NCBI GenBank assembly: GCA_023511995.1
Contig: JAIMAL010000010.1
Location: 1 to 64,000 of the forward strand
DNA length: 64,000 bases
Origin: Burkholderiales bacterium
Lineage (GTDB): Bacteria > Pseudomonadota > Gammaproteobacteria > Burkholderiales > Thiobacteraceae
Direction: 5' to 3'
Shown here: positions 29,460 to 46,501 of the stretch, one piece after another
Layout: each line of letters begins with the position of its first letter
Position numbering within the stretch: position 1 is the first letter of the stretch
Position numbers and translations under genes: made by a program
The notes under the pieces: generated by a model
Database searches by the model: none
What the model was told of the DNA's origin: nothing
Seen by the model: only the letters and a program-made list of their open reading frames with translations

Positions 29460-30206
29460 TCAAAACCCTTGATAACGGACACCGAGATTCAGTTTCAGGT
29501 CAGCGCGCAGCTCCATGGTGGAGTATTGCGCGATGCGCTTGGCGATCTCGCTGTTGGGGTCGTTCAGGTTGCCGAAGAGGATGGCGCCGTGGCCCGCCCT
29601 GGCGCAGGCTTCCACGCACGCCGGCTGCTGGTCGCGATCGACGCGGTGGACACACATGGTGCAGGATTCCACACAGCCGATGCCCCGCGGCACGTCCGGG
29701 TTCTGATCGGTGATGCGCTCGTGGACGAAGGACCGCGCCTTGTAGGGGCAGGCCATCATGCAGTAGCGGCAGCCAATGCAGATGTGGCGATCCACCAAGA
29801 CAATGCCATCCGGCCGCTTGAAGGAGGCGCCGGTGGGGCAGACATCGACACAAGGCGGCTCGGCGCAATGCTGGCACATGACCGGCAGCGACTTGGTGCG
29901 TCCAGTGCGCATGTCCCTGAGCTCCACCTTGCGGATCCACTGGGAATCGGTTTCCCGCGTGCCGTGGCCGAAGCCATTTTCCTCTCCGCAGGCTTTGACG
30001 CACTCGTCACAGCCTTCCTGGCACTGATTGGTGTCGATCAGCATCCCCCAGCGCACGGCATGGCTGGCCGGCTCATCGGCGGGCTTGCCATGGGCGATTT
30101 CATACAGGACCACACCTGGGGCGACGGCCACGCCGGCCATGGCGGCGGATGCGGTCAGGAACCGGCGCCGCCCTTCATCGACAGGGGTCGTCTTGTTGTC
30201 AGTCAT
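29460..30206 (-). CDS. dsrO: DsrO, periplasmic ferredoxin-like Fe-S subunit
   Basis: The 248-residue product has a Tat signal (RRRFLTASAA, about 13 to 22) and four cysteine clusters for [4Fe-4S] centres (CQEGCDECVKAC; CQHCAEPPCVDVCPTG; CIGCRYCMMACPYKA; CVESCTMCVHRV). It passes electrons between DsrJ and DsrP on the outer face of the membrane. Its ATG overlaps the dsrJ stop by four bases, so the two genes are coupled. Confidence 0.95.
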   Translation of the reverse strand: MTDNKTTPVDEGRRRFLTASAAMAGVAVAPGVVLYEIAHGKPADEPASHAVRWGMLIDTNQCQEGCDECVKACGEENGFGHGTRETDSQWIRKVELRDMRTGRTKSLPVMCQHCAEPPCVDVCPTGASFKRPDGIVLVDRHICIGCRYCMMACPYKARSFVHERITDQNPDVPRGIGCVESCTMCVHRVDRDQQPACVEACARAGHGAILFGNLNDPNSEIAKRIAQYSTMELRADLKLNLGVRYQGF

Positions 30207-30676
30207 TGCTTGCCTCCGGCAGAAACAGGCGCCTTAGCCACGGCCGCAGCCGCCGTGGCGGCCTGCTGCTTGGGTTTGCTGCTGTGGCAATCCCAGCAAT
30301 CCAGCTTCACTGCGGCATAGGTGTGGCAGCTCTGGCAGAAATTCTCATCACTGCCCAGCACGCTGTTGTTCTTGCTGCTGGCATGGCAGTTGATGCAGTT
30401 CTGCAGGCTGTGCTTCTCGGTCCGGATGCCCTTGTGCACGGTGTCATCCCGATGGTGCAGCAGAAGCTTCATGTGGTTGCGGCGCATGTAGGCGGTGTCC
30501 TCGACACACCGCTCACCCTTCTCGATGACGAGAACGGGCTTCGGCGTCCGACCCGCGGCGGTGCCGGCGCGTTCACCGCTTGCCGCGGCGAACGCACCCA
30601 GGGTGGCCAGGAGCAGGGCGGCGAGCGCCGCCCAGATTCCGGCGGCGCGCCGACCGAGTTTGGCGGCCCCGCTCAT
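30203..30676 (-). CDS. dsrJ: DsrJ, triheme cytochrome c
   Basis: The 157-residue product has an N-terminal signal anchor (hydrophobic about 13 to 33) and three heme c motifs: CINCH, CQSCH and CWDCH. A further cysteine in GERCVEDTAY (C57) matches the unusual axial Cys ligand reported for A. vinosum DsrJ. The start at 30676 is an ATG; a GTG at 30682 overlaps the dsrL stop and is an alternative. Part of the DsrMKJOP complex. Confidence 0.93.
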   Translation of the reverse strand: MSGAAKLGRRAAGIWAALAALLLATLGAFAAASGERAGTAAGRTPKPVLVIEKGERCVEDTAYMRRNHMKLLLHHRDDTVHKGIRTEKHSLQNCINCHASSKNNSVLGSDENFCQSCHTYAAVKLDCWDCHSSKPKQQAATAAAAVAKAPVSAGGKQ

Positions 30677-30678
30677 CT

Positions 30679-32628: not shown

Positions 32629-32668
32629 CTGACTTCTCCTTACGTCGTGATCGTCTGATTTCCGGGTT

Positions 32669-34210
32669 TTATTCGTTCGTGCCCAACTGGATGGCCGTGC
32701 TGACCAGTTGATGCACGCCCCCAACCATGCTCATGGGGAAGCCGTAGTAGGGGAGAACCTTGGTGAACTGCGCCTTGCAAATGGCACAGATGGTGGCCAT
32801 GAAGTTGACCTTCTTCTCGTCCACCACCTGTTTCAGGGCCTGCATGCGGGGGAGGGCGCCTTTGACCCGCACTTCCATGAGGTCGTCGGTGAGCAAGCCG
32901 CCGCCACCACCGCAGCAGTAGGTGCCTTCGTAGATGGTCTCCGGCGCCATGTCGTAAAAATGATTGCAGCAGGCCTTGATGATCTCCCGCGGGATGATGA
33001 ACTGCCCCCCCGGGATGTCGCCCATGCGGGAAGCGCGGGCGACGTTGCAGGAATCGTGGAAGGTGACGATGCGGTGGTCGTTTGCCGACTTGTCCAGCTT
33101 GATCGCCCCCTTCTGGATCAGGTCCCAGGTGACTTCGCAGATGTGGGAGGGCTGCTTGTAGCGGTGATCCAGTTGTTGCTGCAGCATCTTGCCGAAGGGA
33201 TCCTCGGCGCCCGCGCCCACCCCGGTGAGGGTGTTCCAGAAGCTGTAGGCCACCCGCCAGGCATGGCCGCACTCGCCCACCACGACGCGCTTGACGCCAA
33301 GTTCCAGCGCCGCTTCGCGGATGCGCAGCGCCGCCTTGCGCATGTTTTCATAGCTGCCAATGAAAAGGCCGAAGTTGCCCGCCTCGGAAGCCGTGGAGGA
33401 GAGCGTCCAACTGATCCCTGCGGCGTGGAAGACCTTGGCGTAGCCGATCAGGCTTTCCACATGGGGCTCGGAGAAGAAATCGGCCGAGGGGGTGACCAGC
33501 AGCACCTCGGCGCCTTTCTGATCGATGGGCAGACGCACCGGCACCCCGGTGTCGGCGAGGATGTCCTCCTCCAGGCCGGCGAGGGTATCCTCCAGGGCCG
33601 GGCCGGGCAGACCGAGGTTGTTGCCGATGCGATGGAGCTTACCCAGGATTTCGTTGGAATACTTTTGCCCGCGGCCGACGGAGTCCATGATTTCCCGCGC
33701 GGCCATGGTGATTTCCGCGGTGTCGATGCCATAGGGGCAATACACCGAGCAGCGGCGGCATTCCGAGCACTGATAGAAATAGCTGTACCACTGGTCGAGC
33801 ACTTCCTCGGTGAGGTCGATGGCGCCCACCAGTTTGGGGAAGTATTTGCCAGCGAAGGTGAAATAGCGGCGGTAAACCTTGCGCAGGAGTTCCTGGCGGG
33901 CGACGGGCATGTTGTTGGGGTCTGCCGTGCCCAGGTAGTAGTGGCACTTGTCGGTGCAGGCACCGCAGTGCACGCAGGCGTCGAGGAAGACCTGCAGGCC
34001 CCGGTATTTCTGCAACAGCTCCCCCATGCGCTCGATGGCGCGCTCCTTCCAGTTGGGAAGCAGTTCGCCCGGGTAACCCAGTTGCTCCTGGATTTTGTCG
34101 CCGGCGATGAACGACTGCACCCCCTGCATCGCCCCCGGCTTGATGGGGGGGATGGGCAGGGTGGCGGTATCGTTGAGGAGCTTCGGTGTTTCGAAGGTCG
34201 ATGCAGCCAT
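32669..34210 (-). CDS. dsrK: DsrK, HdrD-like catalytic Fe-S subunit
   Basis: DsrK is the cytoplasmic catalytic subunit of DsrMKJOP and acts on the DsrC trisulfide or disulfide. The 513-residue product has two ferredoxin-like motifs (CVHCGACTDKCHYY and CSECRRCSVYCPYG) and CCG-type cysteine clusters in the C-terminal half (CGHAW, HDSCNVAR, YCCGGGGG). The ATG at 34210 gives the expected N-terminus; the longer frame upstream overlaps dsrM and has no similarity. Confidence 0.95.
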   Translation of the reverse strand: MAASTFETPKLLNDTATLPIPPIKPGAMQGVQSFIAGDKIQEQLGYPGELLPNWKERAIERMGELLQKYRGLQVFLDACVHCGACTDKCHYYLGTADPNNMPVARQELLRKVYRRYFTFAGKYFPKLVGAIDLTEEVLDQWYSYFYQCSECRRCSVYCPYGIDTAEITMAAREIMDSVGRGQKYSNEILGKLHRIGNNLGLPGPALEDTLAGLEEDILADTGVPVRLPIDQKGAEVLLVTPSADFFSEPHVESLIGYAKVFHAAGISWTLSSTASEAGNFGLFIGSYENMRKAALRIREAALELGVKRVVVGECGHAWRVAYSFWNTLTGVGAGAEDPFGKMLQQQLDHRYKQPSHICEVTWDLIQKGAIKLDKSANDHRIVTFHDSCNVARASRMGDIPGGQFIIPREIIKACCNHFYDMAPETIYEGTYCCGGGGGLLTDDLMEVRVKGALPRMQALKQVVDEKKVNFMATICAICKAQFTKVLPYYGFPMSMVGGVHQLVSTAIQLGTNE

Positions 34211-34229
34211 GGGGTCCCCTAAACCGTAA

Positions 34230-34964
34230 TCACTTTTCCAGTTCCGCCGCCCAGGGCGCGAGGTGGCGATGTTCCCGCGGGTCGTCCACCTGGTTGCGCG
34301 TGGGGCTGAAGAAGACACCGGGCGCATGGAGCAGTTTGCTGATGGGGAAGACGATCATCAGCGTTGCCACCAGGGCGAGATGTGCCATGAGGAGGGGGTC
34401 CTCCGGTAGCGGATTGATTTCAAAGCGCATCAGTCCCAGCATGAAAGCCTTGAGGCCGACGATGTCGGTATGGCTGACGAAGGTCATGCTCATCCCGGTG
34501 ATGCCGATACCGATGAGCAGCAGGAGGATGAGGTGGTCGGACAGAGTGGTGATGTAGCGCACACGATCCACAAGGAAACGCCGCGCCCAAAGCCCGATCA
34601 GACCGGCCACCATGGCGAAGGAGGCGTATTTGCCCGCCGCCTGGACGAGTTCGAGGGAGACGATGTCCCAGACCGGATATTGGAAATAGCGCAGATGACG
34701 GAAGAGGACGACGGCCAGGCCGACATGGAAAAGCCAGCCAAACAGCCAAATCCACTTGTTGGACTTGAACAGACTTTCGAACAGAATCACTTCGCGCGCC
34801 ATGCGCAGCACCACGCCGGTTTTCGTCGTCGGGGCCGGTGTGGTGGGAATCTTCAGGGGCGCCGGCGTGCTGGCGTACTGATAGATCTTGCGCGCCAGAC
34901 CCAGCACCAGAATCGCGGTGGCCACGTAAAACAGGGCCGCAAAAAATACCGTTGTTGTCGTCAT
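34230..34964 (-). CDS. dsrM: DsrM, diheme cytochrome b membrane subunit
   Basis: DsrM is a NarI-like membrane cytochrome b that links DsrK to quinone. The 244-residue product has about five transmembrane helices and conserved histidines in them (for example VGLAVVLFRHLRYF and HLALVATLMIVFPISKLLHA). The ATG at 34964 is chosen because GAGG lies six bases upstream; a GTG at 34967 is adjacent. Separated from dsrC by a GC-rich hairpin. Confidence 0.94.
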   Translation of the reverse strand: MTTTTVFFAALFYVATAILVLGLARKIYQYASTPAPLKIPTTPAPTTKTGVVLRMAREVILFESLFKSNKWIWLFGWLFHVGLAVVLFRHLRYFQYPVWDIVSLELVQAAGKYASFAMVAGLIGLWARRFLVDRVRYITTLSDHLILLLLIGIGITGMSMTFVSHTDIVGLKAFMLGLMRFEINPLPEDPLLMAHLALVATLMIVFPISKLLHAPGVFFSPTRNQVDDPREHRHLAPWAAELEK

Positions 34965-34997
34965 CACCCGCCTCGGATCCGCTACGAAGGTTCGGCA

Positions 34998-35020
34998 CGC
35001 CGCGCCGGCCGGGCGCGGCG
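34998..35020 (-). terminator. Strong intercistronic hairpin between dsrC and dsrM
   Basis: A perfect nine-base stem, CGCCGCGCC pairing with GGCGCGGCG around a five-base loop, lies between the dsrC stop and dsrM. No T-run follows on the minus strand, so it is more likely an mRNA stabiliser, processing site or attenuator than a full terminator. It would favour higher dsrC than dsrM expression. Confidence 0.55.
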
Positions 35021-35036
35021 GCCGATCAACACCCTT

Positions 35037-35369
35037 TTAGATGCAGCCGGTCGGCTTGGGCAGACCGGCGATCTTGCACGCCTGCTTGGCCGGACCGTAG
35101 GGGAACAGCTCGTAGAGGTACTTGCTGTTGCCTTTTTCCGGCCCCAGCTTCTTGCCGATCGCCTTGGTCAGCACGCGGATGGCCGGCGCGATCTGATAGT
35201 CGTTGTAGTACTCACGCAGGAAGTTGATCACTTCCCAGTGGGCGTCGGTCAGCTCGATTTTTTCCTCGGCTGCCAGATGCTTGGCGACTTCCTCGTTCCA
35301 GTCCGACAGGTTGACCAGGTAACCTTCCTCGTCGGTCTCGTACACTTTGCCGTTGATTTCAAAGCTCAT
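35037..35369 (-). CDS. dsrC: DsrC, redox sulfur-carrier protein
   Basis: DsrC accepts sulfur from DsrE/TusA-type carriers and forms the trisulfide substrate of DsrAB and DsrMKJOP. The 110-residue product has the complete C-terminal arm with both conserved cysteines, C98 (CysB, in KQACKIAGLPKP) and C109 (CysA, penultimate), so it is a true DsrC and not TusE. A second DsrC-family gene without cysteines is encoded at 40262-40594. AGGAGAGGC-like sequence precedes the ATG. Confidence 0.98.
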   Translation of the reverse strand: MSFEINGKVYETDEEGYLVNLSDWNEEVAKHLAAEEKIELTDAHWEVINFLREYYNDYQIAPAIRVLTKAIGKKLGPEKGNSKYLYELFPYGPAKQACKIAGLPKPTGCI

Positions 35370-35399
35370 TTGCCTCTCCTTACGTAGAAAAATGAAGCA

Positions 35400-35705
35400 T
35401 TACAACCAGGATTGGTTGTTGCGATGCTCCGCCACCAGATCCACAAAACCGCCGTAATCGACGAGCTTGATGCCATCGATCACCCGGTCTTGCATGCCGC
35501 GTGCCTCCAGGTCCGGCCAGAGGGCATAGATCTTGATCTTGCCCATGACCCCCTTCAGCAGGTTTTCCGCGATGTTGCCCTTGGTCGCCGCATAGACGGC
35601 GTCCTCGATGAGGAGCAGGGCCGCCCCGTCTTCATGGGTGATGACGCGCAGGCAGTTTTCCAGCGTCCGGTTTTCGTACGGGGACTTGTTCACAATGTGC
35701 AGCAT
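35400..35705 (-). CDS. dsrH: DsrH, sulfurtransferase subunit
   Basis: DsrH is part of the DsrE2F2H2 hexamer that relays sulfur to DsrC, related to TusBCD. The 101-residue product starts MLHIVNKSPYENRTLENCLRV with the conserved cysteine at C18, and ends EHRNNQSWL as in TusB/DsrH. It follows dsrF by 12 bases. Confidence 0.95.
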   Translation of the reverse strand: MLHIVNKSPYENRTLENCLRVITHEDGAALLLIEDAVYAATKGNIAENLLKGVMGKIKIYALWPDLEARGMQDRVIDGIKLVDYGGFVDLVAEHRNNQSWL

Positions 35706-35717
35706 TCGCTTTCCCCC

Positions 35718-36125
35718 TCAGAAGCTCAACACGACGTCCTGTTCGGCCATCAGCCTAGCCATGCCTGCGGCGTCGAGCACCTCCACGTCCACCAGCAGGT
35801 CATCCACGGTAAGCCCACGCTCTTCCAGGGACTCCTTCAGCACATAGAGCTTTTCGATGTCGTAGCCTTCCAACGCCCGATAGGTGGGGGAGAAGTTTTT
35901 GACGTCGATGGCCTTGGTGTGCTGGCCCTTGACGATCTGATAAACCCCATCGTCGAGGAAGACCAGGCTCACGTCCTGATCGAACGCGGCGCTGATCAGC
36001 ACCACTTCCAACCCTTCCAGGGCGTAGATGGTGCCATAGGGCGCCTTGCGGTTGACGAACATGAATTTTTTGACGACCCCGGCGGATTCTTCCTCGAAGT
36101 CGATGCCACCCGTTGCTTCGGTCAT
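35718..36125 (-). CDS. dsrF: DsrF, sulfurtransferase subunit
   Basis: The 135-residue product is a DsrE-fold protein of the TusC/DsrF type (KKFMFVNRKAPYGTIYALEG, then FLDDGVYQ and LVDVEVLD). It lacks the active cysteine of DsrE, as expected for DsrF. I chose the ATG at 36125 with GGAGAA upstream; an in-frame ATG four codons earlier overlaps the dsrE stop and is less likely. Confidence 0.95.
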   Translation of the reverse strand: MTEATGGIDFEEESAGVVKKFMFVNRKAPYGTIYALEGLEVVLISAAFDQDVSLVFLDDGVYQIVKGQHTKAIDVKNFSPTYRALEGYDIEKLYVLKESLEERGLTVDDLLVDVEVLDAAGMARLMAEQDVVLSF

Positions 36126-36136
36126 GTCTTCTCCCA

Positions 36137-36496
36137 TCAGTCGCCAAACACCACCAGACGGTCGGCCTGGATGCCCACCTCCACCAGCTGGCCGAGACCG
36201 GAAATCCGGAAGCCTTCCGCCAGGTTCTCATCCTTGATGCCGCGACGCAGCGCGGCAGCCACGCAGACCACCAGGTCGATGTTGTGCTCCTTGGCGAGCT
36301 TCTGCCAGCGTTGGACGATGTTGCGGTCGTCCTGCGGCGGCTCAGTCAGGCGGCTCGAGTTGTAAACCCCGTCGTGATAGAAAAACACACGGGGCACTTG
36401 GTGGCCTTTCTCGATTGCAGCCTTGGCAAACTGATAAGCGGTATCGCTTGCCTGGTGCTGGTAAAGACCCTCATTCACCAGAATGCCAAACTTCAT
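36137..36496 (-). CDS. dsrE: DsrE, sulfurtransferase active subunit
   Basis: DsrE binds persulfide sulfur on a conserved cysteine, seen here as C78 in DLVVCVAAALRRG, and passes it to DsrC. The 119-residue product has the full DsrE/TusD fold (MKFGILVNEGLYQHQASDTA, FFYHDGVYNSS, GLGQLVEVGIQADRLVVFG). It is separated from dsrB by a 78-base gap with a long hairpin. Confidence 0.96.
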   Translation of the reverse strand: MKFGILVNEGLYQHQASDTAYQFAKAAIEKGHQVPRVFFYHDGVYNSSRLTEPPQDDRNIVQRWQKLAKEHNIDLVVCVAAALRRGIKDENLAEGFRISGLGQLVEVGIQADRLVVFGD

Positions 36497-36531
36497 TCAA
36501 AACCCCTGATCTTTGTAGTGTTTTTGAATGG

Positions 36532-36566
36532 CATCACCCCCGCACCCGTTTGGATGCAGGGGGATG
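36532..36566 (-). terminator. Intercistronic hairpin between dsrB and dsrE
   Basis: The transcript would form a stem of about 13 pairs (CATCCCCCTGCATCC against GGGTGCGGGGGTGATG, loop AAAC) with one bulge and two mismatches. No long U-run follows on the minus strand, although CAAAAAC occurs downstream. It probably sets stability or partial attenuation between dsrAB and dsrEFHC. Confidence 0.5.
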
Positions 36567-36574
36567 ACTACGAT

Positions 36575-37645
36575 TTAGAAGCGGATGTGCGCCGAAGCGT
36601 TGAACGTGACGCGGTGACCCTTCCAATCGTCGATGTGGTACTTGGTGAAGGGCAGACCGGTCTTCTCGAAGAAGCGCGGCCAGCCGATGCGGTCGATCCA
36701 GTCACGCATACGCTCCCAGGGACGGGCATCCGCCTTGTACACCGAGAGGATCTTCTTCACCACGGCGCTGACCTCGGGCCAACGCGGCGGGTTGTTGGGC
36801 AGGCCCGCAGCCACCAGCTTGTGGAAGGTGGGACGGGAACGGGCATTGGAGTTCTTGCCCCCCACCCAGATGGCGATCTTCGAGTGCTCGGGGTCGTTGA
36901 TCTGCATCGGCGGGCAGGGAGGATAGCAGGCGCCGCAGCAGATACATTTCTTCTCGTCCACTTCCAGCGAGGGTTTGCCGTTCACCAGTGCGGGACGAAT
37001 GGCCGCCACCGGGCAGCGCGCCACCACCGCCGGCCGCTCGCAGACGTTGGCCACCAGATCGTGGTTGATCTTGGGCGGCTTGGTGTGCTGGACGATGACG
37101 GCGATGTCGGCCTGGCCGCCGCAGTTGATTTCGCAGCAGGAGGTGGACAGTTTCACCCGGTTGGGCATTTCGCATTTGACAAACTCGTCGTAGAGCTCGT
37201 CCATCAGGGCCTTGACGACGCCGGAAGCGTCGGTGCCCGGGATGTCGCAATGCAGCCAGCCTTGGGTATGGGCCACCATGGACACCGAGTTGGCGGTGCC
37301 ACCGACGGGGAAGCCGGCTTCGGTGAGGGCCTTGATCAGCGGCTCGACTTTCTTTTCGTCCGCCACCATGTATTCGATGTTGGAACGTGTGGTGAAGCGC
37401 ACGTAGCCATCACCGTATTTGTCGGCGATCTCGGCCAGCTTGCGGATGGTGTAGGTGTCCATCTGGCGCTGGGTGCCGGCCTTGACGGTCCAGATCTCAT
37501 CCCCGCTTTCGGCGCGATGGTAGAGCACACCGGGCCGCGGATGGGAATGGAACACCCACTTCCCGTAGTTCTTGACCATCACCGGGTGCATGTAGGGTTT
37601 GGGATCCGGCGCCCCGGATTCGATCGGTTGGCGAAGTTCTGCCAT
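36575..37645 (-). CDS. dsrB: DsrB, dissimilatory sulfite reductase beta subunit
   Basis: DsrB with DsrA forms the siroheme enzyme that oxidises DsrC-bound sulfur to sulfite. The 356-residue product has the siroheme/[4Fe-4S] region with C133 and C170-C171-x3-C175 (TSCCEINCGGQAD) and an inserted ferredoxin domain (CICCGACYPPCPPM). I chose the ATG at 37645 (MAELRQPIESG), preceded by AGAGGA. It follows dsrA by 73 bases. Confidence 0.97.
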   Translation of the reverse strand: MAELRQPIESGAPDPKPYMHPVMVKNYGKWVFHSHPRPGVLYHRAESGDEIWTVKAGTQRQMDTYTIRKLAEIADKYGDGYVRFTTRSNIEYMVADEKKVEPLIKALTEAGFPVGGTANSVSMVAHTQGWLHCDIPGTDASGVVKALMDELYDEFVKCEMPNRVKLSTSCCEINCGGQADIAVIVQHTKPPKINHDLVANVCERPAVVARCPVAAIRPALVNGKPSLEVDEKKCICCGACYPPCPPMQINDPEHSKIAIWVGGKNSNARSRPTFHKLVAAGLPNNPPRWPEVSAVVKKILSVYKADARPWERMRDWIDRIGWPRFFEKTGLPFTKYHIDDWKGHRVTFNASAHIRF

Positions 37646-37718
37646 AGGGTTTCCTCTCAATTGTTATGCCTGGGTTTGTGCGCCCACCCTCGCGGGCGGG
37701 CGCTTGGACCGTGACGCT

Positions 37719-39023
37719 TCAGCCGGCCTTGGCCGCCGCCTTGCGCTCGTTCCACTTGGCGACTTCCTCGTCCCAGCCGTCGGTGCGGACATAGGGGTTG
37801 GAGCGCGGCTCGAGGATCATGTTGGGATCCACGTCGATGCCGATGCCCTCGAGGAAGTTCACCAGGCCGATGCGGTCGATCATCTCACCGGTGCGCTCAT
37901 GCTCCAGCGCGTTCTCGGCGAAGAAGTCGAGGACGTTGCGGGCCAGCTCGTTGAGTTTTTCGAAGTCCTCGTCGGACTCGAGCTTCATGAAGGGGATGAT
38001 CACGGTGCCCATGGTGGCGCCAATCTTCAGCACGCCCTTGCCGCCGATGAGGATGGTCACCCCCTTGTCCTTGCCGGGCAGCAGGCCGCCGGGAATGACG
38101 TTCAGGCAGTGCATGCACCGCACGCAGTTGTGGTTGTCGATCTCCATGCAGTCCTGGGCATCCACCGCCGCCACCGAGTAGCCGTCACCCTGGGCCACCT
38201 TGTCCTTGGGCACCAGGCGGATGGCCTTGGTCGGGCACATGTTGATGACCTGGTTGACGAGTTCGGTCTTGCCATGCTTGGCCACCCAGTCCTGGATGAG
38301 CTGCTCGTTGACCTGGATGTTGTCGCGCCAGGTGCCGATGGTGGCGAAGTCGGAGCGCTGGATAGCGTTCACGCAGTCGTTCGGGCAGCCGGAGAACTTG
38401 AACTTGAATTTGTAGGGCAGCGCCGGACGGTGCATGTCGTCCAGGTTGTTGTTGATGACGGTGCGCAGGGCGCGGGCCTCGTCATAGCAGGACATTTCGC
38501 AGCGGGCAGCACCCACGCAGGACATGGAGGTGCGCAGGGCCGGACCGGCACCCCCCAGGTCGAAGCCTTTTTCGTTCAGCTCGTCGAAAGCGGGCTGCAC
38601 ATTTTCGGTCTTGATGCCCTGGAACATGATGTCGCCGGACTGGCCATGGAAGGCGATCAGGCCGGAGCCGTATTTGTCCCAGGTGTCGCACAGGCTGCGC
38701 AGCAGGTCGGAGGTGTAATGCATGCCCGCGGGCGGCTGCACACGCAGGGTGTGGAACTCGGCTGCGTCGGGGAACAGGGGCTGATCGTTTTCGTCCTTCA
38801 GCTCGGTGAAGCGGGGGATGACGCCGGCACCATAGCCATACACGCCCACCGTGCCCCCTTTCCAGTAACCCTTGCGGGTTTCATAGGACGTTTCCAGCTG
38901 ACCCAGCAGGTCGGCCATCATGTCCTTTTCTTTCGCCAGGCGCTTGAGCCCGGTCACGAAGCTGGGCCAGGGGCCGCTTTCCAGCTGGTCAAGCATCGGC
39001 GTTGCAGGAATTTGTTTTGCCAT
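37719..39023 (-). CDS. dsrA: DsrA, dissimilatory sulfite reductase alpha subunit
   Basis: Catalytic alpha subunit of rDsr. The 434-residue product has the siroheme-[4Fe-4S] ligand set C169-x5-C175 and C213-x3-C217 (SGCPNDC), and a ferredoxin domain (CMEIDNHNCVRCMHC, about 310 to 325). The start MAKQIPATPMLDQLESGPWP is typical of oxidative-type DsrA and has GGAGAG seven bases upstream; a longer open frame reaches 39218 but lies in the leader. Together with dsrL and dsrEFH this marks a sulfur oxidiser rather than a sulfate reducer. Confidence 0.97.
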   Translation of the reverse strand: MAKQIPATPMLDQLESGPWPSFVTGLKRLAKEKDMMADLLGQLETSYETRKGYWKGGTVGVYGYGAGVIPRFTELKDENDQPLFPDAAEFHTLRVQPPAGMHYTSDLLRSLCDTWDKYGSGLIAFHGQSGDIMFQGIKTENVQPAFDELNEKGFDLGGAGPALRTSMSCVGAARCEMSCYDEARALRTVINNNLDDMHRPALPYKFKFKFSGCPNDCVNAIQRSDFATIGTWRDNIQVNEQLIQDWVAKHGKTELVNQVINMCPTKAIRLVPKDKVAQGDGYSVAAVDAQDCMEIDNHNCVRCMHCLNVIPGGLLPGKDKGVTILIGGKGVLKIGATMGTVIIPFMKLESDEDFEKLNELARNVLDFFAENALEHERTGEMIDRIGLVNFLEGIGIDVDPNMILEPRSNPYVRTDGWDEEVAKWNERKAAAKAG

Positions 39024-39182
39024 GGCGTTCTCTCCACAAAAAACGTTGAACTGACAACCCAAGGACACTGCACGGCTGCCGCCTGACTGCCGGGCAACAG
39101 ACGCCTCACCTGGGACCCCGGCGGGGCCGAAGCCGTACCCGCCCTTACGTGGCCAAAATGTTATGCCCCGTGTTCCGGGGGC

Positions 39183-39200
39183 ACTATTCACCTGAGTAGT
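39183..39200. promoter_or_regulatory. Operator-like palindrome in the dsr leader
   Basis: ACTATTCACCTGAGTAGT reads as an 18-base near-palindrome, with seven of nine pairs perfect (TCAssTGA core flanked by ACTA and TAGT). It is a candidate binding site for a dimeric regulator. No regulator is identified. It partly overlaps the TGCCCC/GGGGCA hairpin by one base. Confidence 0.4.
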
Positions 39201-39275
39201 TAGCTCGGACCTACCCAAAAGGAGTATCCGGGCTCCCCAAGTTTGGCTAGAAGGCGGCCAAACGGCGCGGGCGCG

Positions 39276-39295
39276 CTTGATAAAGTTGAATCAAG
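39276..39295. promoter_or_regulatory. Inverted repeat CTTGAT-N8-ATCAAG
   Basis: Perfect six-base arms, CTTGAT and ATCAAG, are eight bases apart and lie just downstream of the candidate dsr transcription start. The half-sites resemble FNR/CRP half-sites (TTGAT/ATCAA), but the spacing is eight rather than four, so I do not call it an FNR box. Confidence 0.35.
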
Positions 39296-39320
39296 CCATT
39301 ACCTTATCGCCGAACCTGAA

Positions 39321-39348
39321 ACTCTAGCACAGGCGGCGGATTTTGCAA
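39321..39348 (-). promoter_or_regulatory. Candidate sigma70 promoter of the dsr operon
   Basis: On the minus strand TTGCAA (39348-39343) and TAGAGT (39326-39321) are 16 bases apart. The layout is almost the same as the promoter before the NarX-like gene. The -35 element overlaps the start codon of the divergent 73-residue gene. Confidence 0.45.
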
Positions 39349-39564
39349 TCGGAGCGCATCACCAGTCTGGAAAAGTTCCTCTGTCAGCCCTTCCGCCAGG
39401 AGGTGGAGCTGCAGCAGGTGGAGCACCCGGCGGGCTATACCACCCTCCGGTTGCGCATCCGGGAGGGCAAGCGCTTCACCGTCTTCGACATCGACGCGGC
39501 GACGGCGGCCCGTTGGGGGAATGCCCTCACCGACTGGGCGCGCCGCCAAGGAGAGCAAAAATAG
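39343..39564 (+). CDS. Small conserved-looking protein beside dsr (DUF6967-like)
   Basis: A 73-residue product: short helical start (ERITSLEKFLCQPFRQEVEL), then a compact beta region (TTLRLRIREGKRFTVFDIDA) and a helix ending in ARRQG. It reads as a real folded protein rather than a shadow and resembles small DUF6967-type proteins that I recall from sulfur and nitrogen bacteria; that family label is tentative. The start is a TTG with AGGCGG six bases upstream. It is directly upstream of the Cas6-like gene, probably in one transcript. Function unknown. Confidence 0.6.
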   Translation: MQSERITSLEKFLCQPFRQEVELQQVEHPAGYTTLRLRIREGKRFTVFDIDAATAARWGNALTDWARRQGEQK

Positions 39565-39599
39565 GCTGGCTTGCAGACGAAGGCTTCGTCGCCCCCAAG

Positions 39600-40202
39600 G
39601 TGGACGAAGCGGCGGTGACCGATGTTCAGTTCGAGCTGAAGGGGGAGGGCCTGCCCCAGGATCACGGCCTCCTCCTCTACCGCGCCCTGCGTGCCCTGGC
39701 TCCCTGGATGGAGGAAGAGCCGTTGCTGGCCATCCACCCCATCCAGGGTGCGGACGTGGGCGGCGGCCGACTCATGCTCAACCGCCGCGCCAAGCTGGTC
39801 ATCCGCGTGCCACGCCACCGGGTGGAGGAGGTGCTCAAGCTCTCCGGGCAGCGGTTCGAACTGGCCGGGGCGGCTTTTGCCATCGGTGCCGGCAAGCTGC
39901 GGCCGCTTTCTCTGCACACGCCGCTCTACGCGCACCTGGTGACGACGGGTAGCGCCGATGAAAAGGCTTTTGCCCAGGACGTCATCCGGATGTTGGACGA
40001 GCTTAAGATCGACACCCGCTTCATCTGTGGCCGCCGCCAGGCCCTGACCACGGAGCGGGGCACCGAGTATGGCTACAGCGTCCTGCTCCACGGCCTGCCT
40101 GTGGAGCATGCCCTCCTCATCCAGCAGCAGGGTCTGGGGACGAACCGCAAGCTGGGTTGCGGCGTGTTCATCCCCCACAAATCGATTACGCCGGTTGCCT
40201 GA
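39600..40202 (+). CDS. Orphan Cas6/Cmx6-like endoribonuclease
   Basis: The 200-residue product resembles the MYXAN-type Cas6 (Cmx6) family of CRISPR RNA-processing nucleases. Visible features are FELKGEGLPQDHGLLLYRAL with H22 as the probable catalytic histidine, LLAIHPIQG, and the C-terminal Gly-rich loop G178-LG-TNRKL-GCG188, which fits GhGxxxxxGhG. No other cas gene and no CRISPR array is in the window. The start is uncertain: GTG 39600 or GTG 39615 are canonical, while the best ribosome binding site (AAGGAG) lies seven bases before an ATA at 39561 that overlaps the upstream stop. Role near dsr is unknown. Confidence 0.72.
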   Translation: MDEAAVTDVQFELKGEGLPQDHGLLLYRALRALAPWMEEEPLLAIHPIQGADVGGGRLMLNRRAKLVIRVPRHRVEEVLKLSGQRFELAGAAFAIGAGKLRPLSLHTPLYAHLVTTGSADEKAFAQDVIRMLDELKIDTRFICGRRQALTTERGTEYGYSVLLHGLPVEHALLIQQQGLGTNRKLGCGVFIPHKSITPVA

Positions 40203-40261
40203 CGGCGTGCCGGTCGGCTTCCCTAACTTGGCTTTTGTTTGACAGAAGAAGGAGTTGACAG

Positions 40262-40594
40262 ATGGGCTATGTGATCGATGGTGTCGAGTACGAGTACGAT
40301 GATGAGAAGTTCCTCCTCGAGCCGATCATGACCGAGGAAGCGGCCAAGGTGATCGCCGCCGCGGAAGGCATCGAGCTCACCGATGAACACTGGATGGTCA
40401 TCGAACACCTGCGCAACGAATACCGGGAAAAGGGCCACACGCCGAATTTCCGCAACCTGGTCAAGGAAATGGAGGAGCTGCAACCGGGCATCGACTGGAA
40501 AAAGCGGCTCTATGAACTCTTCCCCATGCAGCCGGCGCGGCAGGCGGTGCGGATTGCCGGTTTGCCCAAACCGTTTGGCAAGGGCGGCTACTGA
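40262..40594 (+). CDS. DsrC-family protein without cysteines (RspA type)
   Basis: The 110-residue product aligns along its length with DsrC/TusE (LTDEHWMVIEHLRNEY, KKRLYELFPMQPARQAVRIAGLPKP). It contains no cysteine at all: CysB is replaced by Val in RQAVRIAG, and the C-terminus is FGKGGY rather than TGC-I. DsrC homologues lacking both cysteines have been grouped as RspA and proposed to be regulatory. It therefore cannot carry sulfur by the DsrC mechanism. AGGAG lies eight bases before the ATG, and a strong terminator follows. The true DsrC is at 35037-35369. Confidence 0.9.
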   Translation: MGYVIDGVEYEYDDEKFLLEPIMTEEAAKVIAAAEGIELTDEHWMVIEHLRNEYREKGHTPNFRNLVKEMEELQPGIDWKKRLYELFPMQPARQAVRIAGLPKPFGKGGY

Positions 40595-40614
40595 AGCCGG
40601 CCGCAGGTTGGGCC

Positions 40615-40640
40615 AAGGCCGGCCGGTGCCGGCCTTTTTA
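40615..40640 (+). terminator. Rho-independent terminator after the RspA-type gene
   Basis: AAGGCCGGC and GCCGGCCTT pair perfectly around CGGT and run into TTTTT. It separates the small gene/cas6-like/rspA-like unit from the sulfurtransferase gene. Confidence 0.85.
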
Positions 40641-40653
40641 TATGGGGCAGCGG

Positions 40654-41502
40654 ATGGCTTATACCACTTTGATTGATACGGAGACCCTGGCCTCCCACCT
40701 GGACGATCCCGATTGGGTGATCGTGGACTGCCGCTTCACCCTGAGCGATACCGAAGCCGGCCGCCGTGCCTACGCCGCCGGGCATCTGCCGGGGGCGCGC
40801 TATGCCCATCTGGATGAAGACCTGTCGGGCCCGCGCACCGGACGCAATGGCCGGCATCCCTTGCCCGATCCGGCGGAGTTTGCCCGCACCCTGGGCCGGT
40901 GGGGCATCGACGGGAACAAACAGGTGGTCGTCTATGACGACAGTTTCGGCTCCATGGCGGTGCGGCTGTGGTGGCTAATGCGCTGGATGGGCCACGATGG
41001 GGTGGCCCTCTTGGATGGGGGGCTGCCCAAATGGCAGCGGGAGAAACGGCCCCTCACCACCCAGCCGCCCCGGATCACCCCGACCGTGTTTGTACCCCAC
41101 CTGAGGGACGAGTTGCGGGTGGATGCGGAAACCGTCCTCGAGGCCAGCCGCAGCGGCAGCCGGCTGATTCTGGACGCGCGGCCGGAAATGCGCTTCACCG
41201 GCGAGATGGAACCCATCGACCCCGTGGCCGGTCATGTGCCGGGCGCAATCAACGTTCCCTTCGACGACAACCTGGATGTCTCCGGCACTTTTCTGCCAGC
41301 GGAGGCGTTGCGCGCCCATTACGAGGCCCTGCTCGCCGGGCGCAGGCCGGAGGAGGTGATCGTCATGTGCGGCTCCGGCGTGACCGCCTGCCACGATCTT
41401 CTGGCCATGGAAGTGGCGGGCCTCACCGGGGCGAAACTCTACCCGGGCTCGTGGAGTGAGTGGATCACCGACCCACGCCGCCCCGTGGCGAGAGGAGAAT
41501 AG
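40654..41502 (+). CDS. Two-domain rhodanese, thiosulfate/3-mercaptopyruvate sulfurtransferase
   Basis: The 282-residue product has an N-terminal inactive rhodanese domain (WVIVDCRF ... YAAGHLPGARYAHLDEDLSG) and a C-terminal active one with the catalytic loop CGSGVTAC, whose first Cys takes up sulfane sulfur. CGSGVT loops are common in SseA-like 3-mercaptopyruvate sulfurtransferases, so the substrate is uncertain. The ATG at 40654 is preferred; ATG 40642 lies in the terminator tail. It is followed two bases later by the 190-residue unknown gene. Confidence 0.9.
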   Translation: MAYTTLIDTETLASHLDDPDWVIVDCRFTLSDTEAGRRAYAAGHLPGARYAHLDEDLSGPRTGRNGRHPLPDPAEFARTLGRWGIDGNKQVVVYDDSFGSMAVRLWWLMRWMGHDGVALLDGGLPKWQREKRPLTTQPPRITPTVFVPHLRDELRVDAETVLEASRSGSRLILDARPEMRFTGEMEPIDPVAGHVPGAINVPFDDNLDVSGTFLPAEALRAHYEALLAGRRPEEVIVMCGSGVTACHDLLAMEVAGLTGAKLYPGSWSEWITDPRRPVARGE

Positions 41503-41504
41503 CG

Positions 41505-42077
41505 ATGGCCATACGGGTCAAAACCACCTGGTTCAAAAAGGATGCCGCGCGCGCCAGTGACGAGACCGCCAGCGTGCTTGCCCTCAACATGTGGAAGCAG
41601 GCCTCGAAGGCGGTGGACGACATCTCCAAGGCGGAGTACGACATCATCCACCTGGGCCGGGGCTTCGGCATCATCGCCGAAATGTGTGCCTTCATGCTCC
41701 ACATCGCCGATCGCCTGCTCTACGGGCGGGTGGACGAGGAGCGGCGCGCCAGTCTCATCGCTGCCACCGGCGCCCGACTGGCCGATTACGTGGACCAGAA
41801 CATCCGCGATCTGGCGCCGGACGAAGTGCACACCCGGGATTACGCGGCGGAGTTCCTCGATTTCCTCAACCGGCGGGGCGCGGACTATGCCACCTTCGAT
41901 TTCCCGCCGGAAGAGCCCAGTTTCGCCGTCAAGCGCTATCTCGCCAACATGATCCGTGAGCGTATGGAAAGCCAGGATCAGGTCTGGATCATCGACCAGA
42001 TCATCGAATTCCAGGCGCCGGAAGCGATCGAAACGGTGAAGAAGCTCATCAACGGTTTTTTCCCCAAGCGTGACTGA
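41505..42077 (+). CDS. Conserved-looking protein of unknown function
   Basis: The 190-residue product is predicted soluble and mostly helical, with no signal peptide or transmembrane segment. Notable stretches are TTWFKKDAARASDETASVLA, LGRGFGIIAEMCAFMLHIAD and a C-terminal KKLINGFFPKRD. I do not recognise the family. AGGAG precedes the ATG; the gene lies two bases after the sulfurtransferase and shares one base with the TauD-family gene (TGATG), so the three form one operon. Confidence 0.8.
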   Translation: MAIRVKTTWFKKDAARASDETASVLALNMWKQASKAVDDISKAEYDIIHLGRGFGIIAEMCAFMLHIADRLLYGRVDEERRASLIAATGARLADYVDQNIRDLAPDEVHTRDYAAEFLDFLNRRGADYATFDFPPEEPSFAVKRYLANMIRERMESQDQVWIIDQIIEFQAPEAIETVKKLINGFFPKRD

Positions 42078-42985
42078 TGGGCTGCCCCTTCCATCTCGAG
42101 GACGAAGCGAGTTACCGCGCTTGGCGGGATGAGAAGCTTGCGGCCTATCCCCGCTCCTTCGACGAGCTGGTGGTGGAGGTGGCCGACCCCCGGCGGCTCA
42201 CCCCGGCGGAGCAGGAGGCGATCCTGGCGCGCTGCCGCCGGGCCAACATGGCCATCTACGCCAGCCGTCACGTGGAAGCCGACAAAGACCTGCCGCGCAA
42301 ACTGGGGGAGCAGTTCGGGCTCGTGCGCCTCGACCGCAATCTGCTCGCCGATGAGGATGCCATCAGCACCCTGACCGTCGCCGAGGAGCAGGAGGGGATG
42401 CGCGGCGATTTCATCCCCTACACCAACCGGCCCATCCGCTGGCACACCGACGGCTACTACAACCCCCCGGCGCAGCGCATTCTGGGGATGATCCTGCACT
42501 GTGTGCAAAGCGCCGAGACTGGCGGTGAAAACCGTCTGCTGGATCACGAGATCGCCTACATCCTGCTGCGCGAGCGCGATCCCGAACATGTGCGCGCCCT
42601 CAGTGAGCCGGATGTGATGACGATTCCCCCCCGCCTCGATGAAAACGGGGTGGCCAGGCCCGCCCAGAGCGGCCCCGTGTTTTCCCTGCTCCCCTGCGGT
42701 GCCCTGCACATGCGCTACACCGCGCGCACCCGCAGCATTGAGTGGAAGGACACGCCATCGGTGCGGGCGGCGGTGGCGGCGCTGGAGGCCATCCTCGGCG
42801 AAGACTCGCCCTTCATCCTGCGCGGCCGGCTGGAGCCGGGCATGGGGCTCATCTGCAACAACGTCCTCCACGACCGCAGCGGCTTCACCGACAGCCCCGC
42901 GCGCCGGCGCATGATCTACCGGGGGCGTTACCTGGATCGCATCCGCGGCACCGGCATGGCGGCCTGCGCCGGTGGTGTGGCCTGA
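42077..42985 (+). CDS. TauD/TfdA-family Fe(II)/2-oxoglutarate dioxygenase
   Basis: The 302-residue product has the facial triad HxD in RWHTDGYYN (about H122 and D124) and a distal His in [10 protein letters not shown] (about H263), followed by an Arg-rich segment ([11 protein letters not shown]) for 2-oxoglutarate binding. TauD itself desulfonates taurine; other members act on many substrates. The operon with a sulfurtransferase suggests an organosulfur or sulfonate substrate, but this is inference only. Confidence 0.85.
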
Positions 42986-43002
42986 ACGCTGCGCCCGGCG
43001 GG

Positions 43003-43032
43003 TTGGCTGCGGCGCAGGCTTTCCGTTATAAT
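43003..43032 (+). promoter_or_regulatory. Promoter of tRNA-Pro
   Basis: TTGGCT at 43003-43008 and a consensus TATAAT at 43027-43032, 18 bases apart, lie just upstream of the tRNA gene. Confidence 0.7.
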
Positions 43033-43041
43033 GCGCGGATT

Positions 43042-43118
<77 letters not shown>

Positions 43119-43161
43119 GATTCACGGGCCAATCCGTCTGCCGCTGGACCATTCCTCTCCC

Positions 43162-43905
43162 ATGCGCATCCTGCTCAGCAATGACGACGGATACTTCGCC
43201 CCTGGCCTGTCCGCCCTCGCTCACGCGCTTGCTGCCATTGCCGAGGTCATCGTCGTCGCCCCGGAGCGGGATCGCAGCGGCGCAAGCAACTCCCTCACCC
43301 TCGACCGGCCATTGAGCCTGCGCCGTTCCCACAACGGCTTTTATTACGTCAATGGCACGCCCACCGACTGCGTGCATCTGGCCGTCACCGGCTGGCTGGA
43401 GACACCGCCGGACATGGTGATCTCCGGCATCAATCACGGCGCCAACATGGGGGATGACACCATTTACTCCGGCACCGTCGCCGCAGCGACGGAAGGGTTC
43501 CTGCTGGGCATTCCTGCCATGGCCATCTCCCTGGCGAGCCAGGGCCACGGCCATTATTCCACCGCCGCCCGGGTGGCCGTGGAGCTCGTCGAACGCATGC
43601 GCAACCGGCCACTGCCGCCGCCGTGCCTGCTCAACGTGAACGTGCCCGATCTGCCCTACGAGGCGCTGAAGGGCACTGAGGTGACCCGGCTGGGCAAACG
43701 GCACAAGGCGGAGCCGGTGGTGAAAACCCAGAGTCCGCGCGGGGAGACGGTGTATTGGGTGGGGGCGGCCGGCAGCGCCCAGGATGCGGGGCCGGGCACC
43801 GATTTCCACGCCGTGGCTCAAGGCTGCGTTTCGGTGACGCCCCTGCAGATGGATCTCACCCATTTCGCGCAGCTCGATGAGGTGCGCGCCTGGCTTGGCA
43901 ACTGA
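43162..43905 (+). CDS. surE: SurE 5'/3'-nucleotidase
   Basis: SurE is a metal-dependent nucleoside monophosphate phosphatase linked to stationary-phase survival. The 247-residue product starts [16 protein letters not shown] with the Asp pair that binds metal, and contains [15 protein letters not shown] and [20 protein letters not shown]. The start at 43162 gives the canonical N-terminus. The surE-pcm-nlpD-rpoS order is typical of Proteobacteria. Confidence 0.96.
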
Positions 43906-43912
43906 GGGGCCG

Positions 43913-44569
43913 GTGAGCAGCAGATTTTCCGGCATCGGCATGACCTCCCAGCGCACTCGGGCGCGCATGGTGGAGCGTCTGAGGGGGCAGGGGATCGCCG
44001 ACGAGGTGGTGCTGGCGGCCATCGGTGCCGTGCCACGGCACATCTTCGTCGAAGAGGCCCTGGCGAGCCGCGCCTACGACGACGTGGCGTTGCCCATCGG
44101 CTTCGGCCAGACCATCTCCCAACCCTATACGGTGGCGCGCATGACGGAATTGGCGCGCAACGGGCGCAGTCTGAAGCGGGTGCTGGAAATCGGCACCGGC
44201 TGCGGCTATCAGGCGGCCATTCTGGCGAAGCTCGCCCAGGAGGTGATCACCATCGAGCGCATTGCGCCGCTCATTGCCCGGGCGCGCAGGAATCTCAGGG
44301 AACTGCGCCTGTTCAACGTCAAGGTCAAATACGCCGATGGCAGCCAGGGGCTGCCCGAGCTCGCCCCCTTCGATGCCATCGTCATGACCGCCGCCGCCAC
44401 TCACATCTCCGAGAAGCTCCTCGCCCAGCTCGCCCCCGGCGGCCGCCTGGTCCTCCCCCTGGGCACGGACACACAGCGGCTCACCGTCGTCGAGCGATCG
44501 GCGCTGGGCTTTCAACAGCTCGAACTGGAAGAGGTCAAATTCGTGCCGCTTTTGCCGGGGATGGCCTGA
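43913..44569 (+). CDS. pcm: Protein-L-isoaspartate O-methyltransferase
   Basis: Repairs isoaspartyl damage in proteins with SAM. The 218-residue product has [13 protein letters not shown], the SAM motif [16 protein letters not shown] and [13 protein letters not shown] chose the GTG at 43913 because GAGGGG precedes it and the start fits the distance to the surE stop (eight bases); the ATG at 43940 ([10 protein letters not shown]) is an alternative. Normal length. Confidence 0.95.
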
Positions 44570-44600
44570 TCCGGCGCACAGCGGCCGTGAGGGAAACGCC

Positions 44601-45548
44601 ATGTCCGGCAAAATTCTGCTGATTGTCCTCATCCCCATGCTGCTTGCCGCCTGTGGGGGCAGCCCCAAACGGGCACCGGTGATTGACCGTCTGCCGGCGG
44701 AGACGGCGAAAACCCCGCCGGCCAAACCGGCGGGAAGGCCCGCGCCCGAAGCGGACTGGCGGCCTGCCACCTACACGGTGAAAAAGGGTGACACCCTCTA
44801 TGGGCTCGCCCTGGAATTCGGCCTCGATTACCGGGAGCTTGCCGAATGGAACGGCATCGGCGAGCCCTACCTCATCCGCGTCGGCCAGGTCTTGCGGCTG
44901 ACTCCGCCCAATGGCGAGGGGGTGCAACCCCTGCGCACCGCCCCCCTGGCCGAGGCCAAGCCCCTGCCCTCCGCCACGGGCAATGTGAAGTCAGAGCCCA
45001 AGGCGCTGCGGCTGCCCTATTCCGAGCAGGCATTGGCCAGGCTGGAAAAGCCCGCAACGCCGGCGCCCCGCACAGAGGCACCTGCTGCGCCGGCAGCCGG
45101 CCCGGCGCCGGAAAAACCGGCCGAAAAGCCCGCCGAAAAGGATGCGCCGCAAGGGGAGGAGGACGATCCGGAGCGGGTCGAATGGGTCTGGCCGGCGAGC
45201 GGCAAAATCATCGCCACCTTCGGCGAGGGGGGAAACAAAGGGGTGGACATTGCGGGCAGCGCCGGCCAGCCGGTGAACGCTGCTGCCGCGGGCAAGGTGG
45301 TGCACACCGGCACCACCTTGCGCGGCTATGGCAAACTCATCATCATTAAGCACAACAAGAGCTACTTCAGCGTCTATGCCCACAACAGCCAGATCCTGGT
45401 GAAGGAAGGTCAGTCGGTGGTGCGTGGGCAGAAGATCGCGGAGATGGGGGACACCGACGCCGACCGCGTGAAGCTCCATTTCGAAATCCGCCGCCTCGGC
45501 AAACCCGTGGACCCGCTCAAATACCTGCCCAACGACAGGAGCTCATGA
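44601..45548 (+). CDS. nlpD: NlpD-like lipoprotein, amidase activator
   Basis: NlpD activates the cell-division amidase AmiC at the septum. The 315-residue product has a lipoprotein signal with LLAAC (C18), a LysM domain (about 56 to 100, [17 protein letters not shown]), a Pro/Ala/Lys-rich linker, and an M23/LytM domain (about 205 to 305). The LytM zinc ligands are degenerate (NKGVDI in place of HxGxDI, KLHFEI in place of HLHFEI), which fits a non-catalytic activator. It overlaps rpoS by four bases. Confidence 0.93.
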
Positions 45549-46501
45549 TTTCCGGATTCGACCCCCAGGACGCCCCCGAGGAAAACGAGCTGCCCCCGGA
45601 AGTGGCCGGCGCGCCCGAGGGGGTGGCCGAACCGGCCACGGAAACGGCGGAAGGCGAGTTCCTGTCCGATCTCAACGCCGACGTCACCCAGATTTATCTC
45701 AACGAAATCGGGCACAATGCCCTGCTTTCGGCGGAAGAGGAGCTGGAACTTACGCGGCGCGTGGTCCAGGGGGATTTCATGGCACGCCAGCGCATGATCG
45801 AGTGCAATCTGCGACTGGTGGTCAACATCGCCAAGCACTACGTGAACCGGGGTCTGCCGCTTCTGGACCTGATCGAGGAGGGGAATCTCGGTCTCATTCA
45901 CGCCCTGGAGAAATTCGACCCGGAGCGGGGCTTCCGCTTTTCCACCTACGCCACCTGGTGGATCAGGCAGAACATCGAGCGCGCCATCATGAATCAGTCG
46001 CGCACCATTCGCCTGCCGGTGCACATCATCAAGGAGCTCAACACCTATCTGCGCGCGCAGCGGCACCTGGAGGCCCACGGCAAACCCGATCCCACGGCGG
46101 AGGATGTGGCCCATCTGCTGGGGCGTGACGTGGAGGAGGTGCGTTACATCCTGAGCCTGAACGAGCGCATGGCCTCCCTCGATGCGCCCCTGGACATCGA
46201 CCCCAATCTTTCCATCGGCGAGGCGATTCCCGACGAGCAGGGGGTGTTGCCGGAAGTGTGGCTGCAACAGGCGGAAATGGAACGCTATGTGCAGGAGTGG
46301 CTGGAGCAGCTCCCCGACAAACAGCGTTCGGTGATCGAACGCCGCTTCGGTCTCAATGGCTACGAGGTGAGCACCCTGGAGGAGGTGGCGGCCGCCCACG
46401 GGATCACCCGGGAGCGGGTGCGCCAGATCCAGATGGAGGCCCTGCAGTCCCTGCGGCGGATTCTCCGCCGTGCCGGGGTGTCCAAGGATTCCCTGCTCTA
46501 G
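45545..46501 (+). CDS. rpoS: Stationary-phase sigma factor RpoS
   Basis: The 318-residue product has sigma70 regions 1.2 to 4.2: [20 protein letters not shown], region 2 with [20 protein letters not shown] and [15 protein letters not shown], region 3, and region 4 with the helix-turn-helix [20 protein letters not shown]. Region 1.1 is absent, and QTIRLPVHI-like [10 protein letters not shown] is present, as in RpoS. Position directly after nlpD confirms the call. Translationally coupled to nlpD through ATGA. Confidence 0.96.

Follow-up and report, generated by a model that had tools for sequence, protein, structure and literature searches.

A Cas6-family protein associated with the dsr genes of Gammaproteobacteria and its possible action on RNA

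Here we describe a Cas6-family gene that lies beside the dsr genes of sulfur oxidation in a 64,000-nucleotide stretch of DNA (hereafter the window, meaning the whole stretch) from a Burkholderiales bacterium of the Thiobacteraceae (contig JAIMAL010000010.1). The gene, cas6 (39561..40202, forward strand), is read away from the divergent dsrA (37719..39023, reverse strand; TIGR02064, 515.5 bits). The association of Cas6 with dsrA in the class of the window, the Gammaproteobacteria, is strong and new; its mechanism is unproven. Judging from sequence, we see about even chances that an RNA-binding endoribonuclease of the Cas6 family was recruited away from CRISPR and is now a permanent accessory of the reverse dissimilatory sulfite reductase (rDsr) pathway in these bacteria, with a predicted action on RNA; most of our doubt concerns the cutting and which RNA is the target. 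To our knowledge, the control of rDsr sulfur oxidation is poorly understood. No description of a dsr-linked Cas6 was found in our searches of the open-licence PMC literature.

Co-occurrence of Cas6 and dsrA

We sampled 369 genomes of the class, detecting Cas6 with PF09559 and scoring genomes as dsrA-positive at a TIGR02064 E-value below 1e-30. We set this threshold ourselves; among the weaker matches are cut genes and other sulfite reductases. Kinship between the genomes is not corrected for in the counts. Cas6 is found in 118 genomes and strong dsrA in 119, with 111 genomes having both, 7 Cas6 only, 8 dsrA only and 243 neither. Cas6 is thus present in only 7 of the 250 genomes without strong dsrA. 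A contig end lies nearby in 14 of the 15 discordant genomes. In each of the seven Cas6-only genomes the contig stops no more than 2.7 kb upstream from cas6, and that of G318 breaks off within a fragment of dsrA. This is consistent with dsr having been lost from the assembly, without being proof of it. Among the eight dsrA-only genomes, seven have a contig end no further than 1.9 kb upstream from dsrA, and tauD is still visible in one of them (L266).

The position of cas6 is also conserved. Among the 117 class loci other than the window, 86 have at least 6 kb of upstream sequence, and in 70 of these dsrA or dsrB is divergent within 6 kb of cas6, with neither gene in that range in the other 16. 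A DsrC-like gene follows cas6 in 83 of the 109 loci with at least 1.4 kb downstream. A preliminary description of this DNA had asked whether the gene is conserved next to dsr, and within the class it is. A second set comprises the best 80 of at least 573 relatives in the GTDB collection and is biased to close relatives of one row; here, dsrA or dsrB is divergent beside cas6 in 40 of 47 eligible loci, and a DsrC-like gene is downstream in 54 of 69. Four of the seven loci without dsrA or dsrB within 6 kb among these best 80 of at least 573 belong to Parabeggiatoa, Thioploca, Thiomargarita and Marithrix. Five genomes of 1.0-1.1 Mb keep cas6 beside dsr, and none of them is in our Cas1 list. In three loci of one family, with genomes of 1.4-1.6 Mb, cas6 is off dsr and divergent from an apparent rnc-era-recO cluster (named by eye).

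The genomes are related and the counts are not independent events, as would be expected if the linkage reflected shared descent only, with cas6 already adjacent to dsr in an ancestral genome and functionally unconnected with sulfur oxidation. We regard this explanation as extremely improbable, given that Cas6 persists in dsrA-bearing genomes even off dsr (the 16 of 86 eligible loci) and in the 1.0-1.1 Mb genomes, and that so few genomes without strong dsrA (the 7 of 250) have it. A search of 398 genomes from across the phylum (dsrA threshold E 1e-25) detected Cas6 in five, all from the order of the window and all dsrA-positive. No relative was found in the viral contigs searched.

The Cas6 protein and its relation to CRISPR

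The window protein matches PF09559 (203.9 bits, cut-off 26.7), the Cas6/Cmx6 model TIGR02807 (160 bits, cut-off 98.85) and the PADLOC Cas6 model (198.7 bits), so that models from Pfam, NCBIfam and PADLOC all support what had been called Cas6-like from the letters alone. An AlphaFold model (39 sequences, mean pLDDT 88.4) has the double ferredoxin-like fold of the repeat-associated mysterious proteins (RAMP), with residues 16-207 aligning to solved Cas6 proteins. The best match in the PDB is the Cas6 of a type I-B CRISPR-associated transposon (CAST; 8fcu, Z 25.6, rmsd 1.5, 192 aligned); further matches are Pyrococcus Cas6 (Z about 15) and Cse3/Cas6e (Z about 12). The ferredoxin-like fold that the preliminary description proposed to look for is therefore found in the predicted model. 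By every sequence and fold test made, the window protein is a genuine Cas6 and not a new fold.

The start codon of cas6 is probably the ATA at 39561-39563, as indicated by the MxWxE with which most relatives begin (I-G-W in the window) and by an AAGGAG ribosome site at 39548-39553, although an assembly error is possible. Counted from this codon, the histidine previously numbered H22, from a GTG at 39600, becomes His35 (39663-39665); the residue stands and its number does not. This candidate catalytic histidine, located after strand 1, is kept in 117 of the 118 Cas6 sequences (117 loci and the window). Two arginines are invariant (118 of 118), and close to the C terminus is a Gly-rich loop whose four glycines are each present in 112-116 of the sequences. 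The same histidine and four glycines are found in six of six Cas6/Cmx6 proteins from cyanobacterial plasmids.

The cas6 gene is under purifying selection: dN/dS (the ratio of nonsynonymous to synonymous substitution rates) could be measured for 18 of 22 close pairs, some of which share a member, and lies at 0.03-0.20. Over 80 loci, Cas6 and DsrA have mean identities of 42% and 77%, respectively, and the identities of the two are correlated (Mantel r 0.466, with none of 500 permutations as high). The gene is thus fast-changing but constrained. Together, the conserved candidate histidine and the low dN/dS suggest that Cas6 probably acts on cellular RNA.

Cas6 is known as an enzyme that processes CRISPR RNA (crRNA), cutting RNA at the base of a hairpin. 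The dsr-linked locus is not a CRISPR system and has no tie to CRISPR Cas1. Direct repeats of at least 22 bases spaced no more than 200 bases apart are absent from the window, so that no CRISPR array is seen there, and the neighbors of the gene are dsr genes and the Cas6 unit rather than those of a type I-MYXAN system. The preliminary description had reported neither an array nor another cas gene. The first part holds for the window; the second does not extend to the genome, which carries one PF09559 gene and, on another contig (C6:88-8484, L034), a type I-E locus with cas1, cas2, Cas6e, cas5, cas7, cse2, cse1 and cas3. The Cas6e of this locus scores 46.6 bits (cut-off 45.2). The first 8 kb of contig C6 contain no repeats, and the type I-E array is probably located beyond the end of the contig, since cas2 lies near that end. 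In the class sample, Cas1 was detected in 51 of the 118 Cas6-bearing genomes and in 85 of the 251 others (odds ratio 1.49, p 0.08, no significant association). No Cas1 match was obtained in 67 of the 118, including 8 of the 12 single-contig genomes.

These results bear on the possibility that the dsr-linked Cas6 still makes crRNA in trans for arrays elsewhere in the genome. TIGR02807 is a CRISPR model and the window genome does carry a CRISPR-Cas locus, but we consider this role very improbable, because the type I-E locus has its own Cas6e, more than half of the Cas6-bearing genomes (67 of 118) lack a Cas1 match and Cas1 shows no significant association. An array elsewhere served by this Cas6 was the case that the preliminary description set against its own proposal; the resident Cas6e and the independence from Cas1 make it unlikely, arrays not having been searched for genome-wide. 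In a quick tree built from 45 rows that we chose, a branch with support 98 separates off 34 class loci, and another (99) the cyanobacterial rows; the order of the window does not form one clade, and the program issued a warning about long branches.

DsrC2 and the Cas6 gene unit

DsrC2 (40262..40594, forward strand), encoded downstream of cas6, is a paralogue of DsrC and TusE without cysteine. It matches PF04358 (106.4 bits) and the DsrC/TusE profile TIGR03342 (84.1 bits, cut-off 53.5), and scores below the cut-off of the TusE model (70.4 and 96 of 191 bits). Cysteine is absent from the window protein and from 75 of 91 adjacent copies, with a single one in the other 16. The protein ends in KGGY (40583-40594 in the window) where DsrC has PTGC(V/I). 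This conserved tail is present in 89 of the 91 adjacent DsrC-like copies, and at least one such copy occurs in 89 of 89 loci, the window included. Two loci (L071 and L072) have a second DsrC-like copy that bears cysteine. Of 14 Cas6-bearing genomes chosen for an unlinked cas6 or for having no adjacent DsrC2, nine encode a KGGY DsrC2 somewhere. Among 30 Cas6-negative genomes that we selected from the class, none has a match extending to the last model position (tails not read). One genome paper (PMC5944118) refers to the binding of A. vinosum DsrC to DNA lying upstream of the dsr cluster; it also reports for Thiodictyon an additional DsrC-like gene, THSYN_22565, whose number places it close to the dsr cluster.

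The unit opens with a small DUF6967 protein (39343..39564, forward strand; PF22295, 96.5 bits) that has a TTG start and a stop overlapping the start of cas6. The trio of DUF6967, Cas6 and cysteine-free DsrC-like protein, all reading away from dsrA, is as previously described. The unit itself is longer than the three genes proposed, and the strong terminator said to close it rests on weak evidence: a terminator-like hairpin with a T tail does lie 3' of DsrC2 (40615..40636), but the scanned region has three such sites against 2.7 expected by chance. There follow on the same strand a rhodanese or mercaptopyruvate sulfurtransferase-like protein (40642..41502; PF00581, 109.4 bits in two stretches; comparison with L038 makes an alternative start at ATG 40654 possible), a 190-amino-acid protein without a Pfam family, hyp190 (41505..42077), and a TauD-type 2-oxoglutarate dioxygenase (42077..42985; PF02668, 75.8 bits), which is present in 82 of 118 loci. 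Upstream, the divergent region between dsrA and the unit (39024..39342) lacks the TATCCC-N4-GGGATA palindrome of many relatives. Past dsrA on the reverse strand are dsrB (36575..37645) and then further dsr genes down to about 26361, which we take to be dsrE to dsrR from their order and from similarity by eye.

The layout DUF6967 - cas6 - DsrC2 - hyp190 - tauD is shared by the window and all four relatives from its order. The DUF6967 gene precedes cas6 in these four relatives and in three of 117 other loci (L097, L121 and L147). The sulfurtransferase gene is within the unit in the window and one (L243) of the four relatives, and is near dsrC2 in 8 of 118 class loci. The commonest layout in the class is divergent dsrA, tauD, LSE, a protein of about 220 amino acids in 44 loci, cas6, DsrC2 and a 65-amino-acid protein; in most other class loci, tauD is the first gene of the unit and adjoins dsrA. 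LSE is a 62-amino-acid protein (MLWLSE...DTPEDWEDRLEAAF; for example L152:7796-7984) whose gene lies upstream of cas6, in the same orientation, in 97 of 118 loci. It has no Pfam or NCBIfam match, and its predicted three-helix model has no significant match in the PDB. The 65-amino-acid partner is found in 57 of 118 loci, always downstream of cas6. A weak match of the 44-locus protein to Cse2 (E 0.019 for a 131-amino-acid piece, L068) disappeared with the 219-amino-acid form from L063 and was taken as chance.

The composition of the unit is the basis of the main rival explanation, in which the Cas6 fold is kept as a scaffold that binds RNA or protein without cutting and that, with DsrC2 and the small proteins, assembles, parks, inhibits or helps to make DsrAB. 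A DsrC2 that mostly lacks cysteine and has KGGY in place of PTGC(V/I) would suit such a scaffold, as would the unannotated small partners that accompany cas6 (LSE in 97 and the 65-amino-acid protein in 57 of 118 loci). The near-invariant histidine, arginines and glycine loop, of which the histidine and glycines are as in CRISPR Cas6, are hard to explain without RNA binding or cleavage, and we judge the scaffold a serious possibility, if on balance an unlikely one.

It has also to be considered that Cas6 acts on tRNA or another housekeeping RNA, for example by connecting tRNA thiolation with the supply of sulfur. DsrC2 is a relative of TusE, albeit below the cut-off of that model; the unit includes a TauD-type gene, and TauD-type enzymes hydroxylate substrates; and some genomes have cas6 off dsr, beside an apparent rnc or rlmB (named by eye). 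Yet the window DsrC2 has no cysteine with which to pass sulfur, nor do 75 of the 91 adjacent copies, and the tie between Cas6 and dsrA in the class is close to one-to-one. We therefore find a housekeeping target improbable.

Possible action on RNA and comparison with known systems

If Cas6 is an RNA-acting accessory of rDsr, it would bind a hairpin in a cellular RNA and probably cut at the hairpin base. Our guess is that the target would most likely be the transcript of the dsr locus or of the operon of Cas6 itself, and Cas6 action may then set the amount or stability of dsr mRNA. DsrC2, with an arm unable to carry sulfur, might dock where DsrC docks and couple Cas6 to the state of DsrAB and DsrC, which is likewise a guess. 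The fullest form of this proposal, that a domesticated Cas6 cuts a hairpin of an rDsr-linked transcript while a cysteine-dead KGGY DsrC reports the sulfur state of DsrAB, would amount to an undescribed RNA-level control; we hold it tentatively and consider it doubtful.

Several observations weigh against an RNA-cutting Cas6 fixed to rDsr. CAST Cas6 has asparagine at the position of the histidine and one relative (L245) has tyrosine, so the candidate residue is not indispensable in the family. Cas6 without dsrA is seen in G127 and G317, whose rated completeness is 100% and 99%; the discordant genome G299 comes from a family (f60) in which cas6 lies away from dsrA in the two further members sampled (L116 and L118). 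Conversely, in G211 (L269), 13.7 kb of sequence upstream of dsrA contain neither cas6 nor tauD. In the phylum sample, 48 of 53 dsrA-positive genomes, from other classes, are without Cas6. Thus, rDsr-type genes can do without Cas6: the dsr-linked protein was added in a single lineage and is not something that dsr genes require. Cas6 is found without a KGGY DsrC2 in 5 of the 14 chosen genomes mentioned above, and 15 chosen dsrA-bearing genomes from other classes yielded four strong full-length matches and one weaker match to DsrC2 without Cas6. The occurrence of DsrC2 in dsrA-bearing genomes without Cas6 indicates that the two are not an obligate pair, and the tie of DsrC2 to rDsr reaches more widely than that of Cas6.

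The search for a target is a further point on this side, as no substrate was found and no hairpin detected suits all lineages. The structured dsr leader suggested by the preliminary description is not borne out: the leader in the window is not unusually structured (z -1.29, with 8 of 100 shuffles folding as well), and over 80 loci the mean z is -0.28 for one half of the leader and -1.00 for the other. Scans by k-mer and energy found no conserved element in the dsr leader next to the start codon except the ribosome site, and an Rfam scan of window positions 26000-46000 returned only a tRNA. In most loci, the spacer between dsrC and dsrM forms a strong hairpin (mean z -2.71 over 64 loci, 67% below -2; for example L050, and about 34968-35036 in the window), which is possibly an mRNA stabilizer. 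We rejected it as a Cas6 substrate, given that its sequence is variable and that it is missing in five loci from 1.0-1.1 Mb genomes (L117, L123, L130, L141 and L145) that retain Cas6.

In many dsr promoters of the class, the TATCCC-N4-GGGATA palindrome, an inverted ACCCCATNGGTAGGGT motif and a TAGACTT box keep a fixed spacing; an example is L049, some 250 nt upstream of dsrA. The palindrome occurs about once per genome, with 20 sites in 20 chosen genomes, most of them picked for having it; 17 of the sites are at dsr, and the reversed control pattern has one match. The palindrome was discarded as a Cas6 hairpin, as it lies some 84 nt ahead of where dsr transcription likely starts, has an A/T-rich center, shows by eye no strand bias of mismatches and is absent from the window. 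Since it precedes the likely -10 box, from which the start is placed, it is probably outside the dsr mRNA, which also speaks against this route to RNA control. The palindrome looks like an operator, as if for one local regulator.

If the proposed recruitment is correct, a CRISPR-independent Cas6 in 118 of 369 genomes of the class, about one-to-one with dsrA, would represent a large-scale turn of CRISPR RNA machinery to metabolism, and rDsr sulfur oxidation would gain a regulator or assembly factor as yet unexplained. For annotation, TIGR02807 will assign the label 'type I-MYXAN CRISPR Cas6' in sulfur oxidizers whose gene is outside such a system. The Cas6 unit is a defined gene set that is open to deletion.

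Among known systems, DsrC2 is of the same family as the sulfur relay proteins DsrC, TusE and DsvC, but differs from them in lacking the C-terminal cysteines and in its KGGY tail. The closest solved structures to the dsr-linked Cas6 are those of type I-B CAST Cas6 (PDB 8fcj and 8fcu), with 27-29% identity over about 200 residues; CAST Cas6 belongs to a Cascade-transposon complex and has asparagine where the dsr-linked proteins have histidine. With Cas6/Cmx6 of type I-MYXAN (PF09559/TIGR02807), the dsr-linked protein has in common the family, the fold, the candidate catalytic histidine and the Gly-rich loop, although it falls on a separate branch of the quick tree. The cyanobacterial plasmid relatives are beside cas3 and cas8-type genes in five of six cases, whereas the dsr-linked locus has neither cas genes nor an array. 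One relative, on a Gloeobacter morelensis plasmid (L236, 5974-6765), has no other annotated cas genes nearby; its neighbors are a PAPS-reductase-family gene and a cupin gene, and it is perhaps another non-CRISPR use of Cas6. The MxWxE start, an Asn-Gly-Trp segment, Arg88 and Lys219 (alignment numbering) set the dsr-linked proteins apart from the six cyanobacterial Cas6/Cmx6 rows, in which these features are absent or not conserved.

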